Shown here: one piece after another, positions 15,212 to 32,502 of the stretch | How positions within the stretch are numbered: position 1 is the first letter of the stretch | How the letters are laid out: each line of letters starts with the position of its first letter | Origin: Akkermansiaceae bacterium | GTDB taxonomy: Bacteria > Verrucomicrobiota > Verrucomicrobiia > Verrucomicrobiales > Akkermansiaceae | Assembly: GCA_030725745.1 (NCBI GenBank) | Contig: JANRFH010000015.1 | Span: forward strand, 6,932-70,931 | Direction of reading: 5' to 3' | DNA length: 64,000 nucleotides | Position numbers and translations under genes: made by a program | Notes under the pieces: model-generated | The model's database searches: none | What the model was told of the DNA's origin: nothing | Seen by the model: the letters and a program-made list of their open reading frames with translations, nothing else

Positions 15212-15233
15212 CTCCTGAGCGTTCATTTCAATC

Positions 15234-15383: not shown

Positions 15384-15547
15384 TTGAACGTATTGATGAC
15401 TTGAAGGTCTATTCCCCCTGAAGACCGGCACTGCCGGCTTTCATGTAAGGGTGTAACAGCAGTTGTCTCTCGAATCCCATGGGTGTGGGTGAAGAAGATA
15501 ACTTTTATAGGCCGCCGGGGAAGGGACTCCTCGGCGGCCTTTCCTTT
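15384..15547 (+). ncRNA. candidate small RNA with own promoter and terminator
   Basis: In the 686-base gap between the PEP-CTERM gene and actA there is a promoter-like pair, TTGAAC at 15384-15389 and TCTATT at 15408-15413 (spacing 18). About 100 bases later a perfect terminator hairpin (AGGCCGCCG at 15509-15517, CGGCGGCCT at 15532-15540) and a T-rich tail follow. Between them is a small stem (CCGGCACTGCCGG at about 15426-15438) and no plausible ORF. I therefore propose a transcript of about 125 bases starting near 15420. I could not match it to 6S, SRP, tmRNA or RNase P. The rest of the gap up to 15830 shows nothing further. Confidence 0.4.
15509..15547 (+). terminator. strong terminator in the gap before the respiratory cluster
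   Basis: The 9-10 bp GC stem AGGCCGCCG/CGGCGGCCT has a short loop, followed by TTCCTTTT. No coding gene ends nearby, so it must end either a small RNA or read-through from the upstream unit. Confidence 0.75.
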
Positions 15548-15836
15548 TGTCGCTGTTGGGCACGTTGCTTTGGCAAGTTAATGTGAATTTTATTCATGAT
15601 GTCGGCCTCCATTGCGAAAATTCCGTTTGCTAATTAAAGCATTTGTGCAGCGTTTTCGCTGCTTTCTGTGTTTTTGGAGAGAATTCTGCGCATTTTTGGG
15701 CAGATTTGTGTGGCCATAGCTGAGTGGAATTGACAGTTTTCATCCTCCCACAAGTGAATTCGATCCCGGAAACGAAGCAAATCAGGCGATTTATCAGAAT
15801 CGATCAACTTTCACGAAATTTGTTTCGGAAAACGCT

Positions 15837-15852
15837 TGTGAAAAATTTCACA
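15837..15852. promoter_or_regulatory. CRP/FNR-family operator-like palindrome upstream of actA
   Basis: TGTGA-AAAATT-TCACA matches the CRP consensus TGTGA-N6-TCACA at all ten specified bases. The symmetry extends to a 22-base near-perfect palindrome at 15834-15855 (GCT...AGC). It ends 46 bases before the actA start, a position suited to control of the respiratory cluster. CRP/FNR-type regulators commonly control respiration, but no regulator gene is in the window, and a hairpin role is also possible. Confidence 0.55.
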
Positions 15853-15898
15853 AGCTCCTAATTTTCGCCCGCTTTACGGCATCTCATCTAATTTTCCC

Positions 15899-16597
15899 AT
15901 GGCGAACATCTTTCCACGCTGGTCGAACCTGCTACCCCTCAAAATCGCATTTTGCCTTGGAACCGTAGGGGCTGGTGTTGTTTTGGCCTTTAGTTACTAC
16001 GCGACGCCCAAGGCTCAAGTGGTTGGCTATCAGCCGACGCAGCCGATTCCGTTTTCTCATAAGATTCACGTTGATCAGCTCGGTCTTGATTGCCGTTATT
16101 GCCATTCCTTCGTGGATGTCGCCGGGCACTCGAACGTGCCGACCGGCAATACCTGTTGGAACTGCCACCAACACGTGCAGAAGGATAGCCCGAAGTTGGC
16201 ACCATTGCACAAGTCGATGGATGTCAATTATCCCGGATACGACGGCAAGCCGATCGAGTGGGTGCGCATCCACAAGGCTCCAGACTACGTCTATTTCAAT
16301 CACTCCGCCCACGTAAACCGGGGGATTTCCTGCCAGAGCTGCCACGGCGACGTGAACAAGATGGAAGTCGTCTATCAGGCCGAGCCGCACTCCATGGGCT
16401 GGTGCCTTGATTGCCACCGCGCACCTGAGGAGCATCTCCGCCCGCTTGAGGAAGTCTACAATCTCAACTACAGCGACGAAGACGCCAAAAAATATGTCAC
16501 CGACGGCTCCGTCGAGACCACCAAAGACCTCGGCAAGCAGCTGAAAGAAACCTTCAACGTGCATCCGAAAACGAGCTGCGCGACCTGCCACCACTAA
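15899..16597 (+). CDS. actA: ActA: pentaheme cytochrome c of alternative complex III
   Basis: The 232-residue protein has one N-terminal membrane helix (about 14-34) and five CxxCH heme sites: CRYCH (65), CWNCH (86), CQSCH (145), CLDCH (169) and CATCH (227). This number and order match ActA of alternative complex III, the quinol:electron-acceptor oxidoreductase that replaces the bc1 complex in many bacteria. The heme domain lies on the periplasmic side. It opens the actABCDEF run. The ATG at 15899 is preceded by AT-rich sequence with no Shine-Dalgarno motif, and a CRP/FNR-like palindrome lies just upstream. Confidence 0.95.
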   Translation: MANIFPRWSNLLPLKIAFCLGTVGAGVVLAFSYYATPKAQVVGYQPTQPIPFSHKIHVDQLGLDCRYCHSFVDVAGHSNVPTGNTCWNCHQHVQKDSPKLAPLHKSMDVNYPGYDGKPIEWVRIHKAPDYVYFNHSAHVNRGISCQSCHGDVNKMEVVYQAEPHSMGWCLDCHRAPEEHLRPLEEVYNLNYSDEDAKKYVTDGSVETTKDLGKQLKETFNVHPKTSCATCHH

Positions 16598-16636: not shown

Positions 16637-19600
16637 ATGAGCAAACGCATTTGGAATCACCCGGAAGTCCCACAGGACGAAACCACCGTCTCTTGGCGCA
16701 GCCCGGGACAGCTCCGTGACACCAAGGAATTCCGCACCTGGATGGATCGCGAATTTCCTCAGGGAGCTGCGGAAATGGAAAATCAGGAGGAGATGGAGAC
16801 GTCGCGTCGGACTTTCCTCAAGTTGATGGGTTCATCGACTGCGCTTGCTGGATTTGGCATGGTGGCTTGCCGTCGTCCAGAGGCTTATATCGTTCCTTAT
16901 ACTCATGCGCCTGAGTGGGTGATTCCTGGAAAAGCGACTTACTATGCCTCCTCGATGCCACGTGCTGGTGGTGCGGTGCCACTTGTTGTTACGACTTTCG
17001 AAGGTCGTCCAACAAAGCTCGGGGCGAATCGCCTCCACCCGGACTACGAAGGCACGGATGCCTTCGCGCAGGCTTCCATACTGGATCTTTATTCCACCTC
17101 GCGCTCACGCAAGGTACTCAAGAATGGTAAAGCAGCTAAGCTCGAGGATTTCCAGACAGTTCTTACTGCTCTAAAGAAGGACTCTGCAGCGAAAATCGGT
17201 TTTGTCTTCGGTGCAGATGAAAGCCCGACTCGTTTGCGCCTCATCGGGGAGCTTAAAAAGGCTTTCGGAAGCGCGAAATTTTACCAATACGAGGCTCTCA
17301 CGGCTAACAGTGCCGATGGAGTGAAGCTGCTGCCTGATTTCGCGAATGCGGATCGCATCGTCTCACTCGACTGCGATTTCACTGGTGTGGATCAGCACGG
17401 TTCAAATATCGCTTTCTTCAACCGCCGCAAGCCGGAAGGCAGAGGATACAAGGCCAAGGCAAATGCCGCTTCGATGAACCGCCTCTACTCGGTGGAGTCT
17501 GCGTTCACACTCACTGGTGGTATGGCGGATCACCGCTTGCGCGTGGCTCCAAGCCATATTGCTGCGGTTGCCGCTCAGATCGCCCGTGAACTCGGTGCTC
17601 CAGACGGTGGCATCGCCCCGATCACCGATGCGAAACAACTCGAGTGGATCAAGCAACTCGCCATCGACCTCAAAGCAAGCGGAGCGAAGACAGCGGTTCT
17701 TGCTGGCTCTCGCCAGTCCGCTGCGGTGAAACAACTGGCTCTTGGCATTAACAAGGCTCTCGGAAACATCGGCACAGGTGTTCAGGCTTTCCAGACTGAG
17801 AACAAAGGCTTTGGCGATATCGCCGCGCTCACTGCGGATCTTAATTCCTCAGCCATCGAGACGGTGGTCATGATGACTCCTTCGAATCCGGTTTACGACG
17901 CTCCGGCCGATCTGAAATTCGCCGAAGCATTCGCCAAGGCTAAAACCAGCATCCACCTCAGCGATCGCACGAACGCGACCGCTTACGCCAGCACTTGGCA
18001 CATCCCTGCAGCCCATTATCTTGAGTCATGGAGCGATGCGCGCAGCTCGCGTGGCACGGTGAGCATCGTCCAGCCGATGATTCTTCCGCTCTACCCGGAT
18101 TGTGTTTCAGAGCTTGAGCTGTTGCTCGCATTCCTTGCAGAAGAGGGGAAACTCGTCACTGGGGAAGGGGAGGACGGCGCTCCTGCACCAGCCCTTGAAG
18201 CTGTCAAAAAGACTTTCAGTGTTGATAAGACTGCTTGGAAAAACCTTCTCAAGAACGGTTTTGCCCAGGACAGCACCTATCCATCCGCGACTCCTTCCGG
18301 TGGAGGCAATGTGACTGCTGAGGCATCAAGCGCTCCTACCAAGGAAAGCCTCGATGTGATTTTCGCGACCGATGCTTCGGTCTATGACGGTCGCTGGATT
18401 GACAACGGCTGGCTCCAAGAGGCTCCCGATCCGGTTTCCAAGCTCACTTGGGACAACGCGGTGCTCATCGCTCCGAAGACGGCCAAAGAACTCGGCATCT
18501 ACGACGAGATTATTCAGCTAGAAACGACCTTCGCATCCGTTTCTCCAGATGGCGAAGGCGAGAAACGCAAGTCGCCGATGATCACCGTTACGGTGAACGG
18601 CAAGTCCGCAGATTTCCCTGTCCTCGTTTCCTTCGGCCAAGCCGAAAATACCCTCATCATCCCGCTCGGTTACGGCCAGGCATTCAACGCTGATAATGAT
18701 CTCGGCCTCGACGCGAAAAACGAGAAGTTCACAGGTCTCGTAGGTGTGAACCGTGGATTCGACGCATACCCGCTCCGCACACAGGCAACCGGCTATTTCG
18801 CCACCGGCGCGAAGATCAAGCTTACCGGCGAGAAATATCCCGTCGCACTTACCCAAGAGCACAACGCCATGTATGGCCGTGCGCTTGCCCGTGAAATTTC
18901 AACAGACACCGTTGCGCACAAAGGCGACTTCAACGCGCAGCTGAAAAACGTCCGCAAGCAGGGCATGGACTCCCATGCTCCGGTGAACATCTCGCTCTAC
19001 AAGCAGGAAGACCGCGATGGTAAGGCGCTCCTTAGCGATCCACTCCATCAGTGGGCGATGTCGATCGACCTTTCTTCCTGCATGGGTTGCAATGCCTGCC
19101 TCGTCGCCTGCCAGTCGGAAAACAACATCCCGATCGTCGGTAAAGAACAGGTCGCAAAAGGCCGCGAAATGCACTGGATCCGCATGGATCGCTACTTCGC
19201 AACTCACAAGGACAACGATTTCGATGCAGACAGCCCAGCCATGGTTCCACAACCGGTCGGCTGCATGCAGTGCGAATCCGCACCATGCGAAACGGTCTGC
19301 CCGGTCAACGCCACGGTGCACACCGAGGACGGCCTCAACGCGATGGCTTACAACCGCTGCATCGGCACCCGCTACTGCGCGAACAACTGCCCTTACAAAG
19401 CGCGCCGGTTCAACTTCTTCGACTACAACAAGCGCAACCCGCTCATCAAAAACAACCTCAACAGGGGGCCATTGGGCGAGCGTCACGACAAGGAGCCAAA
19501 TCACCTTCAGAAGAACCCGAACGTCACCGTCCGCATGCGGGGTGTCATGGAAAAATGCACCTACTGTGTGCAGCGCCTCAAGGACGCGGTCATCCGCCAG

Positions 19601-19924
19601 AAGCGCGGCCAGAAACAGGAAGTCCTCGCCTCCGGCAAGCAATCACCCGATGTCGCGGTCTCCAACGAAACCCTCCGCATCCCGGTTGATTCCGTGAAAA
19701 CTGCCTGCCAAGACGCATGCCCTGCGGAAGCAATCAGCTTCGGCAACCTCAAGGACGAGTCCAAATCCGAAATGGGACGTGCGAAGAAACTCGAGCGTAA
19801 CTACGACCTCCTCCAATACATCGGCACCGCACCGCGCACAAGCTACTTGGCTCGCGTGAAAAACCCGAATCCAGAAATGCCCGATGCGAAGTTCATCGGC
19901 CAGGCAACCATCAACATGGCCTGA
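16637..19924 (+). CDS. actB: ActB: molybdopterin-fold/iron-sulfur subunit of alternative complex III
   Basis: The 1095-residue protein fuses the two parts of ActB. Residues about 1-720 resemble the molybdopterin oxidoreductase fold but, as is usual for ActB, hold no cofactor. The C-terminal part is an NrfC/HybA-like ferredoxin with four cysteine sets: CMGCNACLVACQ, CMQCESAPCETVC, CIGTRYCANNC and CTYC...CQDACP, giving sites for one 3Fe-4S and three 4Fe-4S clusters. A twin-arginine motif SRRTFLK at about residue 56 suggests Tat export, although the leading 55 residues before it are long, as in other ActB. It starts 39 bases after actA and 36 bases before actC. Confidence 0.95.
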   Translation: MSKRIWNHPEVPQDETTVSWRSPGQLRDTKEFRTWMDREFPQGAAEMENQEEMETSRRTFLKLMGSSTALAGFGMVACRRPEAYIVPYTHAPEWVIPGKATYYASSMPRAGGAVPLVVTTFEGRPTKLGANRLHPDYEGTDAFAQASILDLYSTSRSRKVLKNGKAAKLEDFQTVLTALKKDSAAKIGFVFGADESPTRLRLIGELKKAFGSAKFYQYEALTANSADGVKLLPDFANADRIVSLDCDFTGVDQHGSNIAFFNRRKPEGRGYKAKANAASMNRLYSVESAFTLTGGMADHRLRVAPSHIAAVAAQIARELGAPDGGIAPITDAKQLEWIKQLAIDLKASGAKTAVLAGSRQSAAVKQLALGINKALGNIGTGVQAFQTENKGFGDIAALTADLNSSAIETVVMMTPSNPVYDAPADLKFAEAFAKAKTSIHLSDRTNATAYASTWHIPAAHYLESWSDARSSRGTVSIVQPMILPLYPDCVSELELLLAFLAEEGKLVTGEGEDGAPAPALEAVKKTFSVDKTAWKNLLKNGFAQDSTYPSATPSGGGNVTAEASSAPTKESLDVIFATDASVYDGRWIDNGWLQEAPDPVSKLTWDNAVLIAPKTAKELGIYDEIIQLETTFASVSPDGEGEKRKSPMITVTVNGKSADFPVLVSFGQAENTLIIPLGYGQAFNADNDLGLDAKNEKFTGLVGVNRGFDAYPLRTQATGYFATGAKIKLTGEKYPVALTQEHNAMYGRALAREISTDTVAHKGDFNAQLKNVRKQGMDSHAPVNISLYKQEDRDGKALLSDPLHQWAMSIDLSSCMGCNACLVACQSENNIPIVGKEQVAKGREMHWIRMDRYFATHKDNDFDADSPAMVPQPVGCMQCESAPCETVCPVNATVHTEDGLNAMAYNRCIGTRYCANNCPYKARRFNFFDYNKRNPLIKNNLNRGPLGERHDKEPNHLQKNPNVTVRMRGVMEKCTYCVQRLKDAVIRQKRGQKQEVLASGKQSPDVAVSNETLRIPVDSVKTACQDACPAEAISFGNLKDESKSEMGRAKKLERNYDLLQYIGTAPRTSYLARVKNPNPEMPDAKFIGQATINMA

Positions 19925-19960: not shown

Positions 19961-21433
19961 ATGGCCTCCTCCACAGAAACCGCCCCGGAAACCGGAGTTA
20001 AACTTCCGGTACTGAAGCGTGAAAAGCTGATCCTCAACGACCGTTCCTACCACTGGATCACGGATCGGATCTGCGGAATTATCGAGAACAAGCAGCCGCT
20101 CCTTTGGTGGCTTCTGTTCCTTCCATCGTCGCTGATCGCCCTGATCGGTGTCGGCGGTGGTCTATTCCACCTTGTCTCCACCGGTGTAGGTGTCTGGGGA
20201 AACACGAACCGCATCATGTGGGGCTGGCCCATCGTGAACTTCGTTTTCTGGATCGGTATCGGTCACGCCGGAACACTGATTTCCGCCATCCTTTTCCTCA
20301 CCCGGCAAAACTGGCGGACATCCATCAACCGCGCGGCGGAAGCGATGACGATCTTCGCCGTGATGTGCGCGGGTATTTTCCCTGCCTTCCACGTTGGCCG
20401 TGTCTGGTTTGCTTGGTTCCTCGCACCGGTGCCAAACGCCAACGGCATCTGGCAGAACTTCAAATCGCCGCTCCTGTGGGACGTTTTCGCGGTTTCCACC
20501 TATTTCACCGTCTCCCTTATTTTCTGGTTCCTTGGCATGGTTCCCGACCTCGCGACCATTCGTGACCGCTGCAAGCCCGGCCTGCGCAAGGTGCTCTACG
20601 GTATATTCGCCCTCGGCTGGAGAGGCGGCAACCGCCAGTGGAGCCACTACGAAATGGCTTACCTCCTTCTCGCCGCGCTTTCCACACCGCTCGTTCTTTC
20701 CGTCCACTCCGTCGTCTCCTTCGACTTCGCTACCTCGGTTGTCCCCGGCTGGCACACCACGATTTTCCCTCCATACTTCGTAGCGGGCGCGATCTTCGGT
20801 GGCTTTGCGATGGTGCTCACGATCATGATTCCCGCTCGTTTCATCTACGGTCTCCAGGATCTGATCACCATGAAGCACATCGACAACATGGCGAAAATCA
20901 TCCTGCTCACCGGCACGATCGTCGGCTACGCCTACCTGATGGAGCTCTTCGTCGCCTTCTACTCCGGAGCGATCTACGAAATGGCCGCCTTCAAATACCG
21001 CATCGCGGGGCCTTACTGGTGGGCATACGCCGCCATGATGAGCTGCAACGTTCTTTCACCACAGATCTTCTGGTTCAAGGCCTGCCGCGAGAACCTCTGG
21101 GTCGTCATGATTGTTGCGATGTGTGTTAACATCGGCATGTGGTTCGAGCGCTTCGTGATCATTGTGACCACCCTTGCCCGCATGTGGCTGCCGGGTGATT
21201 GGAAGACCTTCTCGCCATCGCCTCAGGATCAGATGCTCTTCGTCGGCACGATAGGCATGTTCCTCACGCTCTTCCTCCTCTTCCTGCGCTTCCTGCCCTG
21301 CATCAACATCGCCGAGGTGAAATGGACGAAGCTTGAGAGCGACCCACACTTCGACGACATCGAGTCGCATCCTGACAAGGGTGCGGACACCATCGCCGCC
21401 TATCAGAAAGAAATCGCTGACGCGAAGAACTGA
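19961..21433 (+). CDS. actC: ActC: NrfD-like quinol-binding subunit of alternative complex III
   Basis: The 490-residue integral membrane protein has the NrfD/PsrC pattern of about ten helices. It has the typical opening ([21 protein letters not shown]), then [27 protein letters not shown]-like APVPNANG, and a His/Glu-bearing stretch ([19 protein letters not shown]). ActC binds the quinol and feeds electrons to the iron-sulfur chain in ActB. It ends 37 bases before actD. Confidence 0.95.
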
Positions 21434-21470: not shown

Positions 21471-22028
21471 GTGAGCACCACCCGCAAACGTGTCTACGGC
21501 TACCTCGCCGAGTTCAAAAGCGCATCCGCACTCTACAAGGCGGCCGAGAAGGTTCGTGACGCAGGTTTCCGCAAATGGGACTGCTACACGCCATATCCCG
21601 TCCACGGCCTTGATGCCGCGATGGGACTGAAGCGCTCGATCCTGCCATGGTTTGTCTTCTTCGGCGGTATGACTGGCACCGCCACTGCCTTCGCGCTCGC
21701 CTACACCACCCAGGTCGTCATTTACCCGACGATTGTTCAGGCGAAACCGACCAACATCTTCACGATCCCCGCGTTCTTCCCAGTGATGTTCGAGCTTACG
21801 ATCTTGTTCTCCGGTTTCACAGTGCTCTTCGGACTACTCGCCCTGATGCAGCTCCCGCGCCTCAATCATCCTCTTTTCGCCAGCAAGCAATTCCACCGTG
21901 CTACAGACGATGGCTTCTTCATCGCCATCGAAGCACGCGACGCAAAATTCAGTCCAGACGGCACTCGCGATCTCCTCAGTGAGATCGGCGGTGAAAACAT
22001 CGAACTCGTCGAAGAGGAAGAGAAATAA
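21471..22028 (+). CDS. actD: ActD: membrane subunit of alternative complex III
   Basis: The 185-residue protein with two membrane helices (about 56-78 and 98-122) matches ActD (DUF3341). It has an N-terminal soluble alpha/beta part KRVYGYLAEFKSASALYKAAEKVRDAGF, WDCYTPYPVHGLDAAMGL before helix 1, and HPLFASKQFHRATDDGFFIAIEA after helix 2. It starts with GTG at 21471. ActD packs beside ActC and has no cofactor. Confidence 0.92.
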   Translation: MSTTRKRVYGYLAEFKSASALYKAAEKVRDAGFRKWDCYTPYPVHGLDAAMGLKRSILPWFVFFGGMTGTATAFALAYTTQVVIYPTIVQAKPTNIFTIPAFFPVMFELTILFSGFTVLFGLLALMQLPRLNHPLFASKQFHRATDDGFFIAIEARDAKFSPDGTRDLLSEIGGENIELVEEEEK

Positions 22029-22061: not shown

Positions 22062-22712
22062 ATGCGCTACTTCTTCATCACTTACGCGATTATCGCTGTC
22101 CTCGTCGTGGGCATCGGTGGCTTCCGCGGCCAACATTTCTCCAAGCCTCCTATCCAAGTTTTCCCGGATATGGACAATCAGGACAAACTCAAAGCTCAAG
22201 CTCCGAGCACGTTCTTTGCCGATCGACAAGGCGGACGCCTTCCTGTCGATGAAACGCAACCCCGCGGCTTCAACGAAGAGGGTGCTTCCGAAATCGGTGG
22301 TATCCCAGAGCCAGAGTTCGGCGGCCAAGAAGACTATTACCACACCGGCCACGTTGGTGACTACTACGGCACCGGTATGCCTGAGGAACTTGCTTTGAAC
22401 GACGAAAGCATTGTCGAATTCATTGCTAAGGGCAAAGAACGCTTCGGCATCTACTGCGCAGTTTGCCACGGTGCAGCTGGAGATGGCCTTGGAATTACTT
22501 CACGATACGGTGTCCCCGGCATCGCGAATTTACACCTCGATCCTTTCAAATCTGCTTCCTACCCGGACGGCCGTATGTTCGAGGTTATCACCAAAGGCAA
22601 AGGTCAGATGGGCGCATACGGCGCGAACATTTCAGTGCGCGATCGCTGGGCAATCATCGCCTACGTCCGCACGCTCCAAGCCGCGAAAGAAGCCGCAACC
22701 GCAGCCCAATAA
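22062..22712 (+). CDS. actE: ActE: monoheme cytochrome c of alternative complex III
   Basis: The 216-residue protein has one N-terminal membrane helix (residues 4-21) and a single CxxCH (CAVCH at about 136-140), with a GMP/GYGAN-type axial Met region downstream (KGQMGAYGANISVRDRWAIIAYVRTL). The early segment PPIQVFPDMDNQDKLKAQ is typical of ActE, which hands electrons from ActA to the terminal oxidase. It ends 10 bases before actF. Confidence 0.93.
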   Translation: MRYFFITYAIIAVLVVGIGGFRGQHFSKPPIQVFPDMDNQDKLKAQAPSTFFADRQGGRLPVDETQPRGFNEEGASEIGGIPEPEFGGQEDYYHTGHVGDYYGTGMPEELALNDESIVEFIAKGKERFGIYCAVCHGAAGDGLGITSRYGVPGIANLHLDPFKSASYPDGRMFEVITKGKGQMGAYGANISVRDRWAIIAYVRTLQAAKEAATAAQ

Positions 22713-22722
22713 ATTTTACCAG

Positions 22723-24093
22723 ATGTCCCACCACGTAACATCCGCTGACATAGCCATCAACGGCGACCACCTCGACAAGTCGAAGGTCGCCAAGCTTAAA
22801 ACCATCTGCCTCGGTATCACTGCCGTTGGCACCATTATCAGTCTCCTTGGGCTCTTCGGGGTCTTTGGTCAATGGTTCCAAGGCACCTACGCCTACTCAT
22901 GGGTTTTCGCTTACTACTTCTTCCTCACACTCTCCATCGGAGGGGTATTTTGGACGCTCCTGCATAACGTCTCGAACTCGGGGTGGGGGACTTCTGTTCG
23001 CCGGACTTTCGAAAACCTCGGCTCCACCTACCCATGGATTTTCCTATTCGGTGTTCCATTGCTTTTCCCGCAAGTGAACCAATATCTCTTCGAGTGGATG
23101 AACGTCCACCGTGCAGGTGCCGAGGCCGTTTCTGGTGGTCACGCCAAGGACATGAAGGATTACCTGCACCACACTGATCACCTTCTCTACAACAAGCTCT
23201 TTTACATGAACATTGGCAGTTGGATCGGCCGTTTCATCTTCTACGGAGTGGGTGTAACTGGAGTGATCTACTTTCTTAGGAAACTATCCACAGACCAGGA
23301 CACAGATCCGAAGCCGGGTCTTAAGCGTTTGTTCGCTGCTCGCAAGCACTCGACTTATACGCTCATCATCTTTGCGCTAACCATTACCTTCACTGGTTTC
23401 GATCTCCTCATGGGTCTCGACTATAAATGGTTCTCCACCATGTGGGGTGTATATATCTTTTCAGGCTCAGCTCTGAATTCAATGGCTGTCATCATTCTTG
23501 TCTGCACTTACCTGAAAAGCCAAGGGCACTTGAAGCACGTTACCACGCCGGAGCACTTCCACATCATGGGTAAACTGCTCTTCGCCTTCACCACCTTCTG
23601 GGCATACATTTCTTTCTCCCAGTATTTCCTTATCTGGTATGCGAACATCACCGAGGAAACCTCCTACTTCCTCATCCGCAACACGGGTAACTGGAACATC
23701 GCAATGATCTTCCTTGTCTTCGGTCACTTCGTCGTTCCCTTCGTCGTGCTTCTCCAGGCATGGCTGAAGAAGAATCCGAAATACCTCTCGATCGTGGCGG
23801 TTTACACACTTTGCATGCACGTGCTCGACCATTACCTCATTACGATTCCTGAGCGTGGTGTTTCCCTTGGAAACCTCATGATCAAGGATGGAGCAGGTAA
23901 AGTCGTGGTTGATGGACATAAGGTCTTTGGTGAAATCGCTGTCTCCATTCCCGGAGCTTTCTGGGGAGACATCCTCGCCTTCGTCACCATCGGTGCCGCT
24001 TTCGTCTTCTTCCTTCTCCGCGCCATCGGCCAGCATTCGCTCTACCCGAACCGCGATCCGCGAATCCTCGAATCCGCGAACCTCACCAACTGA
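22723..24093 (+). CDS. actF: ActF: second NrfD-like membrane subunit of alternative complex III
   Basis: The 456-residue polytopic protein is the ActC paralogue in the complex. Recognisable parts are SWVFAYYFFLTLSIGGVFWTLLHNVSNSGW, LLFPQVNQYLFEW, LLYNKLFYMNIGSWIGRF and FTGFDLLMGLDYKWFSTMWGVYIF. The frame is open for 104 codons upstream inside actE, but the ATG at 22723 follows the actE stop closely and gives the family length. ActF lacks the quinol-site residues of ActC and helps form a transmembrane path. Confidence 0.93.
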   Translation: MSHHVTSADIAINGDHLDKSKVAKLKTICLGITAVGTIISLLGLFGVFGQWFQGTYAYSWVFAYYFFLTLSIGGVFWTLLHNVSNSGWGTSVRRTFENLGSTYPWIFLFGVPLLFPQVNQYLFEWMNVHRAGAEAVSGGHAKDMKDYLHHTDHLLYNKLFYMNIGSWIGRFIFYGVGVTGVIYFLRKLSTDQDTDPKPGLKRLFAARKHSTYTLIIFALTITFTGFDLLMGLDYKWFSTMWGVYIFSGSALNSMAVIILVCTYLKSQGHLKHVTTPEHFHIMGKLLFAFTTFWAYISFSQYFLIWYANITEETSYFLIRNTGNWNIAMIFLVFGHFVVPFVVLLQAWLKKNPKYLSIVAVYTLCMHVLDHYLITIPERGVSLGNLMIKDGAGKVVVDGHKVFGEIAVSIPGAFWGDILAFVTIGAAFVFFLLRAIGQHSLYPNRDPRILESANLTN

Positions 24094-24122: not shown

Positions 24123-24902
24123 ATGGACCCCACCCGCGACAATCCCCTGATCCGCATCAAAGCCTTCATCGATGGCTTGGGCATCTTCACCTTCTTCGCA
24201 GTTGTGCTGCTGATCATCATCGGCCTCGCTGCTGCTTTTGGCCTATTCAGCAAGGGCGAAACGCCTGAGGACGCAGCCGGTGACATTCGTTATGAGACGA
24301 AGACTGAGGTAGATGCCGCTCAGGCCGCATTCCTTACTCCTGAGCAAATTTCCGCAGCTATTCCTGAGGTTTCCAAGGAGCTCATCGCTTCTAAGCCGGT
24401 CGCTGTCGAGAAAGCTGAGCAAATTGTGCCGGGTTCTGAAACTGCTCTAAACCTAGAGAATGCCCCTGCGGTCGATACCACTGAGATGGATGCTGCTGCC
24501 GAAGGTGATGCAGACGCCCCTATCGATCCTGCGGTTTTGGAAAAAGGCAAAGCCCAATACATAATGTGCATTGGGTGCCATGGTGAGAATGGCCAAGGGG
24601 TTGAGAGCGTAGCACCCCCACTTGCAGAATCAGAATGGGTCACGGGCCCGATCTCTAATCTCATTAAAATCCAGCTTCGTGGTCTTGCAGGGCCGATCGA
24701 GGTAAATGGTCGGGTCTATGAATTCGCCAACGGCATGCTTCCAATGGCCTACCAGACCAACGAGCAAATTGCCGATGTTCTTACCTACGTTCGAAACAGC
24801 TTCGGAAACAAAGCCTCCGCCGTGAAGCCTGAGCAAGTAGAAGCTCTCCGCAGTGAAGTCGGTAAGCCACAAGTCACCGTCGAAGAACTCACCAAGCCGT
24901 AA
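24123..24902 (+). CDS. membrane-anchored monoheme cytochrome c
   Basis: The 259-residue protein has a membrane helix at about 17-42, an Ala/Glu-rich linker of about 90 residues, and a C-terminal cytochrome c domain with one heme site CIGCH (about 147-151). A likely axial Met lies in GMLPMAYQTNEQIADVLTYVRNSFGN. It starts 29 bases after actF and ends 17 bases before the CcoN-like gene. It resembles the CcoP-like gene at 27220 in layout, so the two are probably paralogues. It probably carries electrons between alternative complex III and the downstream oxidase. Confidence 0.85.
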   Translation: MDPTRDNPLIRIKAFIDGLGIFTFFAVVLLIIIGLAAAFGLFSKGETPEDAAGDIRYETKTEVDAAQAAFLTPEQISAAIPEVSKELIASKPVAVEKAEQIVPGSETALNLENAPAVDTTEMDAAAEGDADAPIDPAVLEKGKAQYIMCIGCHGENGQGVESVAPPLAESEWVTGPISNLIKIQLRGLAGPIEVNGRVYEFANGMLPMAYQTNEQIADVLTYVRNSFGNKASAVKPEQVEALRSEVGKPQVTVEELTKP

Positions 24903-24919
24903 CCTCTTTTTTCAGCCAG

Positions 24920-26419
24920 ATGTCATCAGCTACACAAAAATCATCCTCTCAGGACGCCCTTCTGCGCTCCGGCATCGACCGGTCGTTGCGCCATCCCGTC
25001 ATGTTTTTCATGACCAGTGGTGCTGCATGGCTCGCAGTTTCGCTTATCCTCGGAGTCATTTCTTCCGCGAAAGCGCATTCCCCTGAGTTCCTTGATGGCT
25101 GCGGCTGGTTGACTTACGGTCGTGTTCAGGCGGCTCATACCAGTGCATTGATCTACGGCTGGGGCTTCCAAGCAGCTTTCGGCATGATCATCTGGATGAT
25201 GTCGCGCTTGTCTCGTCAAGAGTGCAGAGCTTCCGGAATCATCCTAACTGCAGGACACGTCTGGAACGTTATTATTTCTCTCGGAACTCTTGGCATCCTT
25301 GCGGGGTATGGCACTGGAATGCCTTGGATGGAGTTCCCCTCATTTACTTGGCCTGTCATCACAATCACCTACGCTGTCATCATGGTCTGGTCGCTCGTCC
25401 AGTTCAAGGTGCGCCCTGAAGGACACGTTTACATCTCCCAGTGGTATCTTTTGGCCGCGATGATTTGGTTCCCATGGGTTTTCATCACCACGAATCTTCT
25501 GCTTCACGTATTTCCAGGAAATCCCGTCATGGCCGCTGGTATCAATGCTTGGTATAAATCTAGTCTGATCTTCCTGTTCTTCGTGCCGATTGGCCTTGGA
25601 ATGGCATTCTACCTTATCCCTAAGGTGACGGGTCGCGCGGTTCACAGCTACTCGCTCGCCAAGCTTGGTTTCTGGTCGCTAGCGATAATTATGCCATGGG
25701 CGGGGATGCAGAAACTTACTGGAGCACCGATTCCATATTTCATCCCTTATCTAGGTGCCGCTGCCACAGTTCTATTCTTCATCCCAGCTTTCACAGCTGC
25801 CGTCAACCTGCTCCGCACAGCGATGGCTTCTGGAGATATCGTCAACAACAGCCCGGCGCTTCGTTTCACTACGGCAGGCATCGTAGGTCTGATTGTTATG
25901 GCAGTGGCCGCGGTTTTCCTGAATCTCCCTGGCTCCACCCTGAAGCTCAGTCAATTTTCCCTCTCGGGATATGGATTTGAGATGCTCTCGCTGTATGGCT
26001 TCTTTAGCTTTGTAGCCTTCGGTGCTATCTACTTCATCGTGCCACGCATCACTGGCCGTGAGTGGCTTTCTCGCCGCCTCATCAAGATGCATTTCTTCAT
26101 CTCGATCTACGGGATCATGCTCATCGCTGTCGTTGCGATCTTCGGAGGACTCCAGCAGGGAGTTGGTCAGGAAATGTTTGACCAGCCATGGGCAACTGCC
26201 TCCACCCGCGCCTATCCCTATGCGATCTGCATCACCTTCTCGTGGTGCACCATCCTCATTTCAAACATCTTCTTCTTCATGCATCTTATGGTGATGTGGC
26301 TACGCCTCGGCCGCCGCAGCAACCACCCGACGCTTCTCGTTTCCGCTCACGGACACAGCCCGCACGGCGAGGAAGGCGATATCGATAACGCTGGCCCCGG
26401 CACAGCAGCAGCCCACTAA
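24920..26419 (+). CDS. CcoN homologue lacking CuB and heme-b3 ligands (inactive oxidase-like subunit)
   Basis: The 499-residue protein with about 12 helices aligns over its length with CcoN, the catalytic subunit of cbb3 oxidase. The helix II His is kept (YGRVQAAHTSALIYGWG). The rest of the active site is gone. Where CcoN has WYGHNAVGFF this has WYKSSLIFLFF; where CcoN has YIWAGPHH this has MPWAGMQK, losing both CuB His and the cross-linking Tyr; and where CcoN has the HVH pair in helix X this has MLSLYGFFSF. So it cannot bind CuB or a high-spin heme in the usual way. The flanking CcoO and cytochrome genes look intact. I infer a structural anchor or electron-transfer scaffold between complex III and the aa3 oxidase. 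A conventional annotation would call it cbb3 subunit I. Confidence 0.88.
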   Translation: MSSATQKSSSQDALLRSGIDRSLRHPVMFFMTSGAAWLAVSLILGVISSAKAHSPEFLDGCGWLTYGRVQAAHTSALIYGWGFQAAFGMIIWMMSRLSRQECRASGIILTAGHVWNVIISLGTLGILAGYGTGMPWMEFPSFTWPVITITYAVIMVWSLVQFKVRPEGHVYISQWYLLAAMIWFPWVFITTNLLLHVFPGNPVMAAGINAWYKSSLIFLFFVPIGLGMAFYLIPKVTGRAVHSYSLAKLGFWSLAIIMPWAGMQKLTGAPIPYFIPYLGAAATVLFFIPAFTAAVNLLRTAMASGDIVNNSPALRFTTAGIVGLIVMAVAAVFLNLPGSTLKLSQFSLSGYGFEMLSLYGFFSFVAFGAIYFIVPRITGREWLSRRLIKMHFFISIYGIMLIAVVAIFGGLQQGVGQEMFDQPWATASTRAYPYAICITFSWCTILISNIFFFMHLMVMWLRLGRRSNHPTLLVSAHGHSPHGEEGDIDNAGPGTAAAH

Positions 26420-26441
26420 TTTCCATTTTTACGCACTACCC

Positions 26442-27188
26442 ATGAGCTTCCGCACTTTCTTCCTCAGTCTCTCCGCCAGTTTCGGAGTGGCATGGTTGGC
26501 CATTATCATCGTCCCTTACTTCAAGATGCGTTCCTTGGAACCCATCGTGATGGAGGAAGGCGAGGGCACAAATGCAGTCTATATCCCGAAACGTGCGGGA
26601 CGTATCGCCGATGGCGCCGAAGTCTATGGCGAAAATGGCTGCTATCTCTGTCACACCCAGCTTGTCCGCCCCACATACGCGGGCAACGACCTTTTCCGTC
26701 CGGACTGGGGTGGTCTTAAAGCCATTGACGATAGGCCAGACACCCGCCGCGAGACAAACGTCTACGATTTCGAAGGCGAACAATTCGCTCAAATCGGTGT
26801 TTCCCGCATGGGCCCGGATCTTTCAAACCTCGGAGTCAGAGTCGAAGAGCTCTACGCCAAGGACATCTCTCCTGAGGATTGGCTGTATCGCCATCTTTAC
26901 AATCCACGCTTCAAGCCGGAAGACCGTGACTCGAAATGCCCTTCGTTCCGCTTCATGTTCGATGAGTCGGAGATCAAAGGAAATCCATCTGATGATGCCC
27001 TGGAATTTGCCGGAAAGAACGGTGGAGAAATTACCCCGAAACCCGAGGCTAAAGCGCTAGTTTCTTATCTTCTCTCGTTGAAAAAAGACCAAGCTGTTCC
27101 ATCGTCTCTCAACTTCGCTCCTTCTTCCGGGGAGGAAGAAGCAGCTCCTCCTGCACCCGCAGATGAGCCATCACCTGCAGGTGCCTGA
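26442..27188 (+). CDS. ccoO: CcoO-type monoheme cytochrome c
   Basis: The 248-residue protein has an N-terminal membrane helix (about 6-28) and one heme site CYLCH at about 67-71 in the CcoO context (GAEVYGENGCYLCHTQLVRP). The typical RMGPDLSNLG, with the axial Met, and YNPRFKPEDRDSKCPSFRFMFDE follow. A Pro/Ala/Glu-rich tail of about 30 residues is extra. The key residues of CcoO are kept although the CcoN-like partner upstream is ligand-free. It starts 22 bases after that gene. Confidence 0.9.
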   Translation: MSFRTFFLSLSASFGVAWLAIIIVPYFKMRSLEPIVMEEGEGTNAVYIPKRAGRIADGAEVYGENGCYLCHTQLVRPTYAGNDLFRPDWGGLKAIDDRPDTRRETNVYDFEGEQFAQIGVSRMGPDLSNLGVRVEELYAKDISPEDWLYRHLYNPRFKPEDRDSKCPSFRFMFDESEIKGNPSDDALEFAGKNGGEITPKPEAKALVSYLLSLKKDQAVPSSLNFAPSSGEEEAAPPAPADEPSPAGA

Positions 27189-27219
27189 TCCATCAATTAT
27201 TTTCCCAGAAATTTCTATC

Positions 27220-27984
27220 ATGTCTTCGCCCGATCCGCAGCACAGCAGCAAGCCCGACCTCGACGAGTCGATCAACGTCACCAAGGCGCATGGACGCGTC
27301 GAACGGGAATCAGCAGCCACCGCCCGCGAGCAACGAATCGCCGACAACGGTCACGAGCCACTGGCTTTGTGGGTCATCGTGGCTTGTGGCATTGTTCTCC
27401 TCATTGCTGGGGGAGTGATTGGAGATGCTGGGACACTATTTTCCTACGGAAATACCTTTAAAGAAGGCTACGTGCGCGGGAAGGCACCGGGATCCTTGGA
27501 GGAGGGCCCGGCTCCCAAAGATGCGCTAGCGGCTTTCAGCGCAAAAGGTCAGAAGGTTTATTCTAAATGCAACGGTTGCCACGGCGCCGACGGTAAAGGT
27601 GGCGCGAGCTACCCATCGCTCGCAGGTTCCGCATGGGTTGTGGGCGATACCCAGAAGTTTGCGATGATCGTGTTGAATGGTCTCCAAGGGCCTGCAAGCA
27701 ATGGCAAAACCTACGGTGTGATGCCTGCCCAAGGTTCGGGCATGTCCGCACAGGATCTTGCAGCTCTGATGACCTTCGTCAGGAACGGTTTCGGAAACTC
27801 GGTAGGTGACGTGGTGACTGTGGAGATGGCAGAGAACGCCCTTGCGATTTCCGCCGCCCGCGAAAAGGTTGGCCAGGCAGTTACTGCAGAAGAGATTAAA
27901 GCGGATCACATGGTCATGCTTGAGGGTGAGCCTCTCGACCCAACGACAATGGTTGATCCCGCCAAGCTGACACCAGTCGAATAA
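27220..27984 (+). CDS. CcoP-like monoheme cytochrome c with membrane anchor
   Basis: The 254-residue protein has an acidic/basic N-terminus, a membrane helix at about 48-70 (LALWVIVACGIVLLIAGGVIG), and a cytochrome c domain with one site CNGCH (about 113-117), GMSAQDLAALMTFVRNGFGN and a Met-bearing YGVMPAQG. True CcoP carries two hemes, so this is a reduced CcoP or a dedicated electron carrier. The ATG at 27220 is preferred over an in-frame ATG at 27163 that lies inside ccoO. It closes the CcoN-like/CcoO/CcoP-like block. Confidence 0.82.
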   Translation: MSSPDPQHSSKPDLDESINVTKAHGRVERESAATAREQRIADNGHEPLALWVIVACGIVLLIAGGVIGDAGTLFSYGNTFKEGYVRGKAPGSLEEGPAPKDALAAFSAKGQKVYSKCNGCHGADGKGGASYPSLAGSAWVVGDTQKFAMIVLNGLQGPASNGKTYGVMPAQGSGMSAQDLAALMTFVRNGFGNSVGDVVTVEMAENALAISAAREKVGQAVTAEEIKADHMVMLEGEPLDPTTMVDPAKLTPVE

Positions 27985-28026: not shown

Positions 28027-29940
28027 ATGAGCGCCAACGCAGCATCTCACGACTCCTCGCATGATCACCACGACGATCATGGAGATCACCACCACAATCC
28101 TGGATTCATCCAGAAATACATTTTTTCGACGGATCACAAGACCATCGGTATTCAGTATGGTATTACCGCGATGTTGTTCCTCGCATTCGGATTCTACCTG
28201 ATGATGGTTATGCGCTGGAGCATCGCCTATCCGCATCAGCCTCTTCCGGAGTGGATGAGTTTCCTTTTCACAGATACTTGGAAAGCCCGTTGGCTTCTGG
28301 ACGGCAAAGTCACGGGTGAGACCTACAACATGTTCGGTGCTATGCACGGCACGATTATGGTCTTCCTAGGAATTGTGCCACTAGGATTCGGTGCCTTCGG
28401 CAACTACGTCACGCCCCTTCAAATTGGTGCTGTGGACATGGCTTTCCCTAAGTTGAACATGCTCAGTTACTGGATTTATTTTGTGGGTGGAGTCATCATG
28501 TGTGCCTCCTTCTTCATGGAGTCCGGTGCAGCAAAATCCGGTTGGACGAACTACTCTCCGCTGGCTGGTTTCGCCGATGGTCAGATTGTAAACCAATGGC
28601 TCGCGGGTCAGACCCAGTGGTTGATCGGGCTCGTTTGCCTCATTACGTCATCACTACTCGGCTCGGTGAATTTCATCACCACCATCATCAATCTCCGCGC
28701 ACGGGGAATGACCTGGATGCGCCTGCCGTTCTTCGTCTGGGCCATGCTTGTAACCGGCTTCCTCCTTCTGCTCGCTTTCCCACCGCTTGAAGCTGCTGGC
28801 ATCATGCAGTTGATGGATCGCGTCGCACACTCTTCGTTCTTCATGCCATCCGGTCTCTACACCAGTGCCGAAGGCCTTGCTGATCTTTCCGGCGGCGGAT
28901 CGCCTCTCTTGTTCCAGCACCTTTTCTGGTTCCTTGGTCACCCAGAGGTTTACGTCCTCCTTCTCCCTGCGATTGCCTGCGTTGCGGAAATCATTCCCGT
29001 CAACACCCGCAAGCCGCTCTGGGGATACAAGTCGATGGTCTATTCCGTCCTCATCCTTGGCTTCCTTTCCTTCATCGTGTGGGCACACCACATGTATATG
29101 ACCGGCATGGGATCCGCCGTCTCCACCTTCTTCCAGACCACGACAGTTCTGATCTCTATCCCATCGGTGATTATCATCACCGCGATGCTGATCTCTCTCT
29201 GGGGTGGTTCTATCAGATTCACCATGCCGATGCTCTGGGCATGTGCGTTCATCCCGATGTTCGGCATCGGCGGTCTCACCGGTCTTCCACTCGCTTTCAA
29301 CCTCGTCGGACTCCACCTGCATGACACTTATTACGTCATCGGTCACTTCCACTATGTGGTAGCTCCCGGTATCCTCTTTGGTCTCTTTGCCGGCGTTTAC
29401 CACTGGTATCCGAAAATGACTGGTCGATACATGAGCAACTTCCTCGGCCACCTTCACTTCTGGCCGAGCCTCGTGTGCATGAACATCATCTTCTTCCCGA
29501 TGCTCATCCAAGGTATGGCTGGCTTCCACCGCCGCTGGTATAACGGTGGCGACGCCTACCTCGCTAAGGCTGCCGACAGCACGGACGTATTTGGTAACGT
29601 GGTTCGCGATTACATTGACCTCAATATCATTATGTCTATGGGCGCATGGGCACTCGCACTCGCCCAGATTCCATTCGTGATTAACCTCTTCATCGCCTGG
29701 AAAGCTGGCAAGAAGGTCGAAAGCGACAACCCATGGGACGCCACCACACTTGAGTGGTCCACTCCGACACCTCCGGGACACGGCAACTTCACCTACGATG
29801 TCGCCGTCTATCGTGGCCCTTACGAATATTCTCGCCCTGATTGCGACAAGGATTACTTCCCACAATGGGAGGCACCCAAGAAGCCCGTGGAAGAACCCGC
29901 GGATGCGCCATCCGTCGCAAACACCAACGATCATCACTGA
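28027..29940 (+). CDS. ctaD: CtaD: aa3-type cytochrome c oxidase subunit I
   Basis: The 637-residue catalytic subunit reduces O2 and pumps protons. All ligand motifs are intact: His in GAMHGTIMVF, the CuB His and Tyr in FWFLGHPEVYVLLLP, the CuB pair in AHHMYMTGM, and HDTYYVIGHFHYVV for hemes a and a3. The Glu of the D-channel (HPEVY) is present. The His/Asp-rich N-terminus (HDSSHDHHDDHGDHHH) is unusual and could bind metal. The C-terminus extends about 60 residues past the last helix. It follows a family A leader repeat and starts the aa3 part of the cluster. Confidence 0.97.
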   Translation: MSANAASHDSSHDHHDDHGDHHHNPGFIQKYIFSTDHKTIGIQYGITAMLFLAFGFYLMMVMRWSIAYPHQPLPEWMSFLFTDTWKARWLLDGKVTGETYNMFGAMHGTIMVFLGIVPLGFGAFGNYVTPLQIGAVDMAFPKLNMLSYWIYFVGGVIMCASFFMESGAAKSGWTNYSPLAGFADGQIVNQWLAGQTQWLIGLVCLITSSLLGSVNFITTIINLRARGMTWMRLPFFVWAMLVTGFLLLLAFPPLEAAGIMQLMDRVAHSSFFMPSGLYTSAEGLADLSGGGSPLLFQHLFWFLGHPEVYVLLLPAIACVAEIIPVNTRKPLWGYKSMVYSVLILGFLSFIVWAHHMYMTGMGSAVSTFFQTTTVLISIPSVIIITAMLISLWGGSIRFTMPMLWACAFIPMFGIGGLTGLPLAFNLVGLHLHDTYYVIGHFHYVVAPGILFGLFAGVYHWYPKMTGRYMSNFLGHLHFWPSLVCMNIIFFPMLIQGMAGFHRRWYNGGDAYLAKAADSTDVFGNVVRDYIDLNIIMSMGAWALALAQIPFVINLFIAWKAGKKVESDNPWDATTLEWSTPTPPGHGNFTYDVAVYRGPYEYSRPDCDKDYFPQWEAPKKPVEEPADAPSVANTNDHH

Positions 29941-29948
29941 GTTCGGTT

Positions 29949-29988
29949 TCCTGAAAACTGAAAACTGAACACTAGCAAACTTTTACAA
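29949..29988 (+). repeat. family C leader repeat upstream of ctaE
   Basis: CTGAAAACTGAAAACTGAAC and then ACTAGCAAACTTTTACAA run directly into the ATG at 29989. The core CTGAAAACTGAACACT with TAGCAAACTT recurs before the dienelactone hydrolase gene. Confidence 0.7.
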
Positions 29989-31647
29989 ATGGAAATCCCA
30001 TACATCGTCACTCCCCGTAAAGACACGGGTCTGATCAACTCCAAGATCGCCATCTGGCTCTTCCTCGCTTCTGAGGTCATGCTCTTCGGTGGTTTCTTCT
30101 CCGCTTACGTTTATCTGCGCATGGGTGCAGATTATCCATGGCCGGAGCGCACGCTTCCCGTCCTTCCTGGTCTCATCAACACCTTCGTGCTTATCGGCTC
30201 CTCGGTGACAGTTGTCTTCGCATGGGCTGCCCTCAAGATGCGTGAGTGGAGAAAATTCCAGATATACATGGGCATCACCGTCGCTTGCGCCGCTCTGTTC
30301 ATGGTGCTGAAAGGCGTGGAGTATAACGTCAAGTTTCATCACCAAGCTGTTCGTTTGGATGACTACTCGGTCGTTGAAGGGCACCTTGGTTACGAACTCA
30401 AAGAGGGTGCCGATGCGCATCATCCAAATGCCGATGACTACGTAAAAGACCACAACGGAGATAAGATCGAGGAAAACATGATCCGGGTGAAGGTGGAGAA
30501 GCTCACCTTCGCTACCAAGCGCTACTACGCAGAGTGGGTGGATGAAATGCTTTCCGAGGCAGACCACGCCAATGCGAAGATCACCCTAGAGGCTGATATC
30601 GAGGCCACCACCACCGAGGGTGGAAAAATGAAAGTCATCGCTAAGAAGGGCGAACCCCTCAGCCTTGATCTCCTCAAAAAGCTCAAGGATGTCCAGCTCG
30701 CCGCCCTAAAGCACAATGCTGCTCTTCGTACCCAAAATCTTCGTGAACAGTGGGTCGTCGCCAAAGATGCAAACCCTGGCAAACAAGGCTGGGAGATTAG
30801 TGATGATGTCAGCATTAACATGGATGACATTACACCGCTTATGCTTTCCGAAGTGCCAAGCGCTACATTTGTAGTGAATCCTCCGACTGAGTTCCTCTTC
30901 AAGCCAAGGGATATCCGAGAAGCTGAAGGCAGTTCAAGGCTCCGTGACGACACCGTCGTCGTCGGTGAACTCGAGGAAAGCCCAATGGTATTCCACAACG
31001 TCGATGCAGTGGACTTCCAATGGCTTGTCATGAAAGCCGAAGAGAAGGGTATCTCCCCGGAAGCCGCCATTGAGAATTCATGGCTTATGAAAAATAATGC
31101 CTTTGTCCGCGAGATATGGGCATGGCACTTGAAGCGCAACGAGGCTAAACAGAAGGATCTCAATGAGCAATATGGCTTCAAGGAAGATGAAAACGGTAAG
31201 CCAACTGAGACTCCTGATCGAGTCCTCACCCACAAAGAACTCTACCGCATCGGCTGGAAGGAATTCAGGGACTACGGTGAAGAAACCAAAGGTGTAGAAG
31301 TTTCCGCTGTTGCAGGTCTGAAAGAAGAATTCATGGGGCCGAATTACAAAGCCCGCGGTGCAGAAACCTTTCCAGAGCTTTCCCTTCCCCGCGAAGAGAT
31401 CCGCCATGCGGCGAAGTTTTCTCCGGCTTGGAACACCTACTACGCGATTTACTTCACCATCACAGGCCTGCACGGCCTTCACGTCATCGGTGGCGCGCTC
31501 GTCCTTGCCTACTACCTGTTTTTCGGACGCAAGATGTATCTGGAAAATCCGGAGTGGCTCGCAAACCGCGTCGAAGTCGGTGGACTCTTCTGGCACTTTG
31601 TCGACCTGATCTGGATCTTCGCGTTCCCGATCCTGTATTTGATGTAA
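29989..31647 (+). CDS. ctaE: CtaE: cytochrome c oxidase subunit III with a ~360-residue insertion
   Basis: The N-terminal 114 residues (KIAIWLFLASEVMLFGGFFSAYVYLR to FMVLKGVEY) and the last 77 residues (FSPAWNTYYAIYFTITGLHGLHV, then LFWHFVDLIWIFAFPILYL) form a normal subunit III. Between them lie about 360 hydrophilic residues, rich in Glu/Lys/Asp with no Cys pair, signal or membrane helix. The host family is usually about 190-260 residues; this is 552. The insert sits between the helix ending in the conserved Glu-Tyr and the next helix, at the membrane surface. Base composition and frame are continuous and no intron-like ends are seen, so I take it as a real protein insertion. Its function is unknown; docking of the neighbouring cytochromes is one possibility. 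Confidence 0.92.
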   Translation: MEIPYIVTPRKDTGLINSKIAIWLFLASEVMLFGGFFSAYVYLRMGADYPWPERTLPVLPGLINTFVLIGSSVTVVFAWAALKMREWRKFQIYMGITVACAALFMVLKGVEYNVKFHHQAVRLDDYSVVEGHLGYELKEGADAHHPNADDYVKDHNGDKIEENMIRVKVEKLTFATKRYYAEWVDEMLSEADHANAKITLEADIEATTTEGGKMKVIAKKGEPLSLDLLKKLKDVQLAALKHNAALRTQNLREQWVVAKDANPGKQGWEISDDVSINMDDITPLMLSEVPSATFVVNPPTEFLFKPRDIREAEGSSRLRDDTVVVGELEESPMVFHNVDAVDFQWLVMKAEEKGISPEAAIENSWLMKNNAFVREIWAWHLKRNEAKQKDLNEQYGFKEDENGKPTETPDRVLTHKELYRIGWKEFRDYGEETKGVEVSAVAGLKEEFMGPNYKARGAETFPELSLPREEIRHAAKFSPAWNTYYAIYFTITGLHGLHVIGGALVLAYYLFFGRKMYLENPEWLANRVEVGGLFWHFVDLIWIFAFPILYLM

Positions 31648-31681
31648 ACCAATCTAACTTATTTCCAACCTTTCGTAAAAA

Positions 31682-32038
31682 ATGGCCGATTCTATTGAAG
31701 CAATTCAAAAATCCAAAAAGACCTACATTCTGGTTTTTCTAGCACTCCTTGTGGGTACTGTGCTAACCGTTCTCGTTGCCGAGGCTCCCACTTGGGCTAC
31801 CTGGCTTCAATGGATGGATGTCGGCGAGCATGGCTTTGACAAGTATGATGCGATTTTGGGGCTTTTGATCGCCACCACCAAAGCGACACTCGTAGCCTAT
31901 TATTTCATGCACTTGAATCACGAGAAGAAGGCAGTATATTGGATTTTCGGCTCTGGTATCGTCTTCGTTCTCTGGATGGCTTTCCTGCTTGCTCTTGCCT
32001 ACAGGAGTCCGATCAACGATTACCTCTTCTACAAGTAA
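31682..32038 (+). CDS. ctaF: CtaF: cytochrome c oxidase subunit IV
   Basis: The 118-residue protein with three membrane helices matches the prokaryotic subunit IV family: KKTYILVFLALLVGTVLTVL, LLIATTKATLVAYYFMHLNHEKK (the family hallmark) and WIFGSGIVFVLWMAFLLALA. It has no cofactor and is thought to help assemble or stabilise the oxidase. It starts 34 bases after ctaE. Confidence 0.9.
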   Translation: MADSIEAIQKSKKTYILVFLALLVGTVLTVLVAEAPTWATWLQWMDVGEHGFDKYDAILGLLIATTKATLVAYYFMHLNHEKKAVYWIFGSGIVFVLWMAFLLALAYRSPINDYLFYK

Positions 32039-32045
32039 AACCATT

Positions 32046-32246
32046 ATGTCACTCCGTAGCTTTCACCTCGTCTTCGTCACAGTCTGCACTCTTTTGTGTG
32101 CCTTCTTAGTGGTGTGGTCATTCGTGCTTGCTCCAGAGCCTTCCGCTATGGCCACGGCTTTCGGGGTTGTCGGTGTCATTGGCCTCGTGCTGATGCCCGT
32201 CTATGGTTTCGCCTTCCTCAAGAAAGCCTCCAAACTTCACCTCTAA
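32046..32246 (+). CDS. small two-helix membrane protein of the oxidase cluster
   Basis: This 66-residue protein (MSLRSFHLVFVTVC...) has two hydrophobic segments at about 5-25 and 35-58 and a basic C-terminus (KKASKLHL). It starts 7 bases after the ctaF stop and ends 7 bases before the next small gene. The longer frame from 31989 overlaps ctaF and is unlikely. Similar tiny proteins accompany ctaF in other aa3 clusters. No function is known. Confidence 0.75.
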   Translation: MSLRSFHLVFVTVCTLLCAFLVVWSFVLAPEPSAMATAFGVVGVIGLVLMPVYGFAFLKKASKLHL

Positions 32247-32253
32247 TTCCGCC

Positions 32254-32457
32254 ATGAACTTCTTCAATATCCTGGCCTGCCCGACCTGCGCTTCCTCTTT
32301 TGAGGCATCGGGAGATTCCATCGGCTACTCGATCTTTTTCCTTCTTATCGTCATCCTCGCCGTTCTCGGTGGAGTAGCTTTCTTCATGACGCGCATCATC
32401 CGCCGCGAAGACAACAACCTCGATCCCGAACTCCGCGACGACTACGTCAGTCACTGA
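32254..32457 (+). CDS. small single-helix membrane protein of the oxidase cluster
   Basis: This 67-residue protein starts MNFFNILACPTCASSFEASG, with a CPTC pair that could bind metal or form a disulfide. It has one membrane helix at about 26-47 and a charged tail (RIIRREDNNLDPELRDDYVSH). It fits between the 66-residue gene and ctaC with short gaps. I do not recognise a family. Position suggests an oxidase accessory or assembly factor. Confidence 0.7.
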   Translation: MNFFNILACPTCASSFEASGDSIGYSIFFLLIVILAVLGGVAFFMTRIIRREDNNLDPELRDDYVSH

Positions 32458-32459
32458 TA

Positions 32460-32502
32460 AAATTTCAGCATTTCAGATTTTAACTTTTCAGCATTTACCC
32501 CA
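32460..32502 (+). repeat. family B leader repeat upstream of ctaC
   Basis: It contains repeated TTTCAGCATTTCAG-like units and ends TTTCAGCATTTACCCCA directly before the ATG at 32503, the same ending as the gatA leader. Confidence 0.7.

Follow-up and report, generated by a model that had tools for sequence, protein, structure and literature searches.

The palindrome TTGTGAAAAATTTCACAA, which lies upstream of actA, the first gene of an alternative complex III cluster, is very probably the operator of Rex and would be bound by it at low NADH/NAD+ and released at high NADH. This reading draws on the operator match, five genomic copies of the site and their neighbours, a rex gene with its contact residues, conservation of the site in relatives and the joint absence of site and Rex from others, all of them read from sequence.

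The palindrome upstream of actA and its genomic copies

The predicted operator occupies positions 15836..15853 (no strand assigned) of the window, the whole stretch of 64,000 nucleotides that was analysed. It matches 14 of the 14 fixed bases of TTGTGAA-N4-TTCACAA and is separated by 45 bases from actA, the first base of which is 15899. Within it lies the 16-mer TGTGAAAAATTTCACA (15837-15852; 46 bases from actA), which resembles a CRP site, and around it a 22-base near-palindrome GCTTGTGAAAAATTTCACAAGC (15834..15855, no strand assigned), a 10+10 inverted repeat with a central AA. The 16-mer, the near-palindrome and their location 46 bases before the gene were all given in the original prediction and are borne out by the sequence positions. 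The 18-base site is that of the published Rex operator consensus TTGTGAANNNNTTCACAA (PMC5317091 and PMC5355995, available portions), and the palindrome also fits the S. aureus form of the Rex operator, TTGTGAAWWWWTTCACAA, as quoted in the available portion of PMC5355995.

The exact pattern TGTGA-N6-TCACA occurs once in the window; with one mismatch allowed it occurs twice, against a mean of 1.14 in shuffled windows (two or more in 28 of 100 shuffles, not significant). Genome-wide there are 13 occurrences, where an order-2 model trained on the window predicts ∼2.5, and the 16-base pattern by itself is a weak signal in the genome. The exact 18-base site was found five times in 3,424,545 bases, against ∼0.011 expected from the same kind of model, and the reversed pattern, used as a control, gave 0 exact matches in this genome. 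The assembly consists of 57 contigs with a completeness of 95.06 and may lack ∼5% of the genome.

All five perfect sites precede respiratory or NADH-oxidation genes. Besides the site before actA in the window, they stand before nuoG-nuoH-nuoI (L017), nuoF (L019), nuoB-nuoC (L020) and a gene for an NDH-2-like pyridine nucleotide oxidoreductase (L018); 'NDH-2-like' refers here to a general Pyr_redox_2 match, with no more specific model over its cut-off. An in-frame ATG 3′ of the site, chosen by eye, can be read for each site-bearing gene; for nuoF, nuoG and the NDH-2-like gene the longest frame starts earlier, in the last case inside the site. The next-best genomic matches comprise two at 13/14 and six at 12/14, five of the eight being inside open reading frames (L275, L278, L279, L023 and L024). 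Two others were rejected as operators since their neighbours are not respiratory: L021 adjoins an open reading frame without a family match, followed by a YkuD gene, and L277 adjoins a gene for a PAS/SpoIIE protein. None of the eight was counted as an operator (the neighbours of L276 were outside the gene search).

The gene actA (15899..16597, + strand) encodes the multihaem cytochrome c subunit of alternative complex III (QrcA-like, below the cut-off of that family). It is followed on the + strand by actB (16637..19924; TAT-variant molybdopterin-like plus iron–sulphur subunit), actC (19961..21433; NrfD-like membrane subunit), actD (21471..22028; PF11821, E 2e-61) and a gene for an actE-like cytochrome c subunit (22062..22712). 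The presumed actF (22712..24093, +) gave no family match and was assigned by its position in the cluster only, with a guessed start; its longest open reading frame, 22411-24093, overlaps actE. The Act subunits stand here in the order usual for alternative complex III clusters, ActD being recognized by a family of its own. Farther downstream, also on the + strand, are genes for a cytochrome c and for CcoN-like, CcoO-like and CcoP-like proteins (24123..27984, all below NCBIfam cut-offs) and aa3-type oxidase genes (28027..33303; subunit I at 28027-29940, the subunit III region at 29989-31647 and subunit II at 32503-33303), which are below NCBIfam cut-offs, with subunits I and III over those of Pfam. 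Positions 24123-33303 thus hold a divergent cbb3-like set and aa3-type subunits I, III and II, apparently as one cluster, and the whole run of genes from actA onwards may be co-transcribed.

The gap upstream of actA contains two strong terminator-like hairpins ∼250 bases apart (15234-15540), possibly belonging to a small RNA, for which Rfam gave nothing above the gathering score. The upstream neighbour of actA (14423-15211) ends in a PEP-CTERM sorting signal.

Candidate regulators in the genome

The genome encodes one clear Rex protein of 229 amino acids (L019:3714-4403, − strand). It matches NF003995 over its cut-off (E 3.4e-72), as it does PF06971 and PF02629 (a CoA/NAD-binding-type domain), and it matches Rex chains in the PDB down to E 7.5e-44; a second PF06971 match in the genome is below the cut-off. 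Its residues 72 R, 73 K, 84 R and 85 G align with Arg48, Lys49, Arg60 and Gly61 of T. maritima Rex, which are described as base-contacting in the available portion of PMC8836258. Four of six further named DNA-contact residues are also kept, and Lys43 and Ser52 are replaced by Thr and Gly, respectively.

The rex gene lies between E1/E2 genes of a 2-oxoacid (probably pyruvate) dehydrogenase, which precede it, and a gene for an ECF-like sigma factor of the sigma-70 family, which follows it (L019:3116-7601). Since rex is on the same strand as these dehydrogenase genes, it may be co-transcribed with a main NADH-producing enzyme.

The original prediction had proposed that a CRP/FNR-family regulator controls a whole respiratory chain from this site. 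The CRP consensus is TGTGA-N6-TCACA, which the 16-base core fits exactly, and HTH_Crp_2 matches over the cut-off were found in at least 74 of 189 genomes of the order, with at most 29 candidates scored per genome. In the window's genome, however, the search for CRP/FNR genes returned none: no HTH_Crp_2 match was over the cut-off when all 21 candidates were scored, the single match reaching 21.9 bits against 27, and the only two cyclic-nucleotide-domain matches, an MscS-type channel and a 164-amino-acid stand-alone domain, show no helix–turn–helix match. Nine site-bearing genomes (G106, G129, G132, G012, G027, G028, G036, G040 and G081), taken from those for which all candidates were scored, likewise have no HTH_Crp_2 match at all. 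The unit that is conserved also differs from a CRP site: it is the 18-base TTGTGAA-N4-TTCACAA, which has an A/T core and exceeds the CRP-like 16-mer by two bases. Of eight other TGTGA-N6-TCACA occurrences in the genome, four are inside open reading frames, and the two for which neighbours were searched adjoin YkuD-type and DFP-type genes (L004 and L011 were left out). A CRP/FNR-family activator or repressor binding to the core is therefore highly improbable, and such a protein as the regulator is largely refuted, given a genome of which ∼5% is possibly missing. The proposal of a palindrome-binding regulator of respiration is well supported, whereas its assignment to the CRP/FNR family is not.

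Given the exact match of the site to the Rex operator and the presence of a Rex protein in the genome, the regulator of the palindrome is most likely Rex and not a CRP/FNR protein. A wrong regulator is thereby replaced by one that can be tested.

Distribution of the site and of Rex among relatives

An order-wide set of 189 genomes was drawn evenly from the order to which the window's genome belongs. At least one perfect site was present in 160 of them, and the reversed-pattern control gave a match in one (G084). ActA was found in 174 genomes, and the upstream regions of the best 90 of these were read (the top 30 with up to 300 bases and the next 60 with up to 400 bases), which leaves out weaker ActA matches, including those of a small-genome genus. 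Conservation of the palindrome before actA, one of the points on which the original prediction turned, is strong: the site is complete (14/14) in 86 of the 90 regions, stands at 13/14 in G132 and is missing from G077, G149 and G183, three genomes that are also without a Rex match. In the Rex-less G183 a half-site remains before actA, the left half standing and the right half decayed. Among the 86 aligned perfect actA sites the flanking bases are also kept, with C directly 5′ of the operator in 86/86 and G directly 3′ in 88%. In G137 the distance from site to actA is 31 bases by coordinates. Two perfect Rex sites stand in tandem before actA in G091 (L111), and a second, imperfect copy follows just after the first actA site in G134 and G166 (L106/L107).

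The 29 genomes without a site consist of 26 from one small-genome genus of the same family, probably Akkermansia, G077 and G149 from the window's own genus, and G183. All 29 are also without a Rex match; 20 scored zero and nine were absent from the 152 Rex-matching genomes. These 152 are found among the 160 site-bearing genomes, with the match over the cut-off in 147. Eight site-bearing genomes have no Rex match (G005, G028, G055, G058, G121, G145, G170 and G182), and in five it is below the cut-off, at E 1e-4 to 1e-6 and in effect none in G130, G136 and G151 and at E about 1e-30 in G161 and G179.

These 13 genomes would be expected if some other, uncharacterized regulator used the same operator and Rex were a mere passenger. 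All 13, however, are fragmented drafts with between 110 and 810 contigs, and completeness is below 95% in 12 of them, although many Rex-positive genomes are drafts as well. The lack of Rex in 29 of 29 zero-site genomes and the exact fit to the motif footprinted for Rex in S. avermitilis (PMC5355995, available portion) also argue against a passenger role, which is very unlikely.

A second set comprised 80 ActA loci, the names of which (Luteolibacter and related verrucomicrobiotal metagenome bins) put the window in or near Akkermansiaceae. It overlaps in part with the first (six identical ActA proteins). Upstream sequence was available for 79 (L139 was dropped); 46 of these regions scored 14/14, one scored 13/14 and 32 scored 10/14 or less, with none at 11 or 12. 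For the first 50 loci, with Rex counted when over the cut-off, 36 have both site and Rex, 11 have neither, one has the site only (L124, without a Rex match) and two have Rex without an actA site (L153 and L159); in L128 and L140, which are among the 11, there is a Rex match far below the cut-off. An ActA tree of 74 rows requires at least 11 changes of the site and 12 of Rex. Only five well-supported independent pairs could be drawn on this tree; site and Rex agree in direction in 3.7 of them on average and are opposed in none (sign test, median p 0.125). The co-occurrence of site and Rex is not phylogenetically independent and is not significant on the independent pairs alone, because these are too few.

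The least probable alternative is that the inverted repeat forms an RNA or DNA structure (a terminator or leader hairpin) and is not a protein site: it can be read as a 9-pair terminator-like stem with the tail TCCTAATTTT, but its T-run is interrupted and comes late, its arms show no covariation and are invariant in 86 of 90 relatives, copies stand at several different operons and are missing where Rex is missing, and an RNA element was rejected since all Rfam matches in 14900-16300 are below gathering scores.

A further 20 sites were read in five relatives (G100, G094, G137, G129 and G103), the adjoining genes being identified in part by tblastn. They stand at nuoG (five), nuoD (four), nuoB (two), an NDH-2-like gene (three), atpB (five, one in each relative) and a prenyl synthase gene (one, L257), the last lying inside the longest frame of a gene with an uncertain start. 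Together with the actA sites, these are all of the sites counted in G100, G094, G137 and G129; in G103 four of the six counted sites are among those read. Unlike in the relatives read, no Rex site was found at nuoD or atpB of the window's genome (loci L284 and L283, on G000:C38 and G000:C45). The gene nuoF follows nuoD in G100 and G129; in the window's genome it is on a separate contig with a site of its own.

On balance, we lean towards the view that Rex acts as a single master switch for nearly the whole oxidative phosphorylation chain of Verrucomicrobiales, and that several lineages, among them the small-genome genus with all 26 of its sampled members, lost Rex and every operator then decayed. 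Such a switch would cover complex I, NDH-2, alternative complex III and the oxidases that go with it and, in the five relatives read, ATP synthase. If the operators decayed after the loss of Rex, respiration would have been left constitutive or under another control.

Proposed regulation and comparison with known Rex systems

At low NADH/NAD+ a Rex dimer would bind the operator before actA and keep RNA polymerase off the genes for alternative complex III and the downstream oxidases. As NADH builds up, NADH-bound Rex would be released, which would allow joint production of the act–oxidase cluster, of complex I genes from three places (those beginning with nuoB, nuoF and nuoG) and of the NDH-2-like gene.

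At actA the operator may overlap the −35 element and spacer of the act promoter. Its left arm, TTGTGA (15836..15841, + strand), could double as the −35 element, in which case bound Rex would exclude polymerase; TAATTT (15859..15864, + strand), 17 bases after this putative −35, is a candidate −10 element, and a TTGTGA-N17-TA-like geometry is seen in relatives. Bases 6–9 after the operator lean towards TAAA among the 86 aligned perfect actA sites (T 47%, A 74%, A 44% and A 50%). This step is weak, because a consensus promoter scan at actA found no promoter and the −10-like feature and promoter overlap were not seen at the other four site-bearing operons of the genome.

With this analysis, alternative complex III joins the likely targets of Rex. 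G077 and G149, which belong to the same genus as the window's genome, carry an act gene while lacking both Rex and operators and are natural knock-outs, so that the cost or benefit of NADH-gated respiration is open to comparison. The operator and its regulator are of an already known kind, and a Rex regulon of such a type is known in Streptomyces. Rex regulons were reportedly compiled by Ravcheev et al. in 2012.

A search of the open-licence literature with narrow terms, in the portions available, found no report that connects Rex with alternative complex III or describes a verrucomicrobial Rex. PMC5317091, PMC5615132, PMC4215793 and PMC8605084 contain both 'Rex' and alternative complex III, with no link between the two in the available portions; in PMC5615132 Rex is the name of an author.

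Ravcheev et al. (2012), as quoted in the available portion of PMC5317091, give the same consensus, with NADH-oxidation genes repressed at low NADH/NAD+. The T. maritima Rex–NAD+–operator structure (7WB3; PMC8836258, available portion) is that of a homologous protein from another phylum, the four base contacts of which are kept here. According to the available portion of PMC5355995, Rex of S. avermitilis binds operators in the promoter regions of the atp, cyd, nuo and ndh2 operons and represses them; its binding is weakened by NADH. The motif TTGTGAANNNNTTCACAA is shared with the present system, and the targets there are nuoA1-N1, ndh2, ATP synthase and a terminal oxidase; at nuoA1 and atpI the operators lie between −35 and −10 and over −35. 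The same portion shows three differences from the present genome: the target on the oxidase side is cytochrome bd in S. avermitilis but alternative complex III with cbb3-like and aa3 genes here, rex is accompanied there by haem genes and here by 2-oxoacid (probably pyruvate) dehydrogenase genes, and complex I, unlike that of S. avermitilis, has separate operators in several places.
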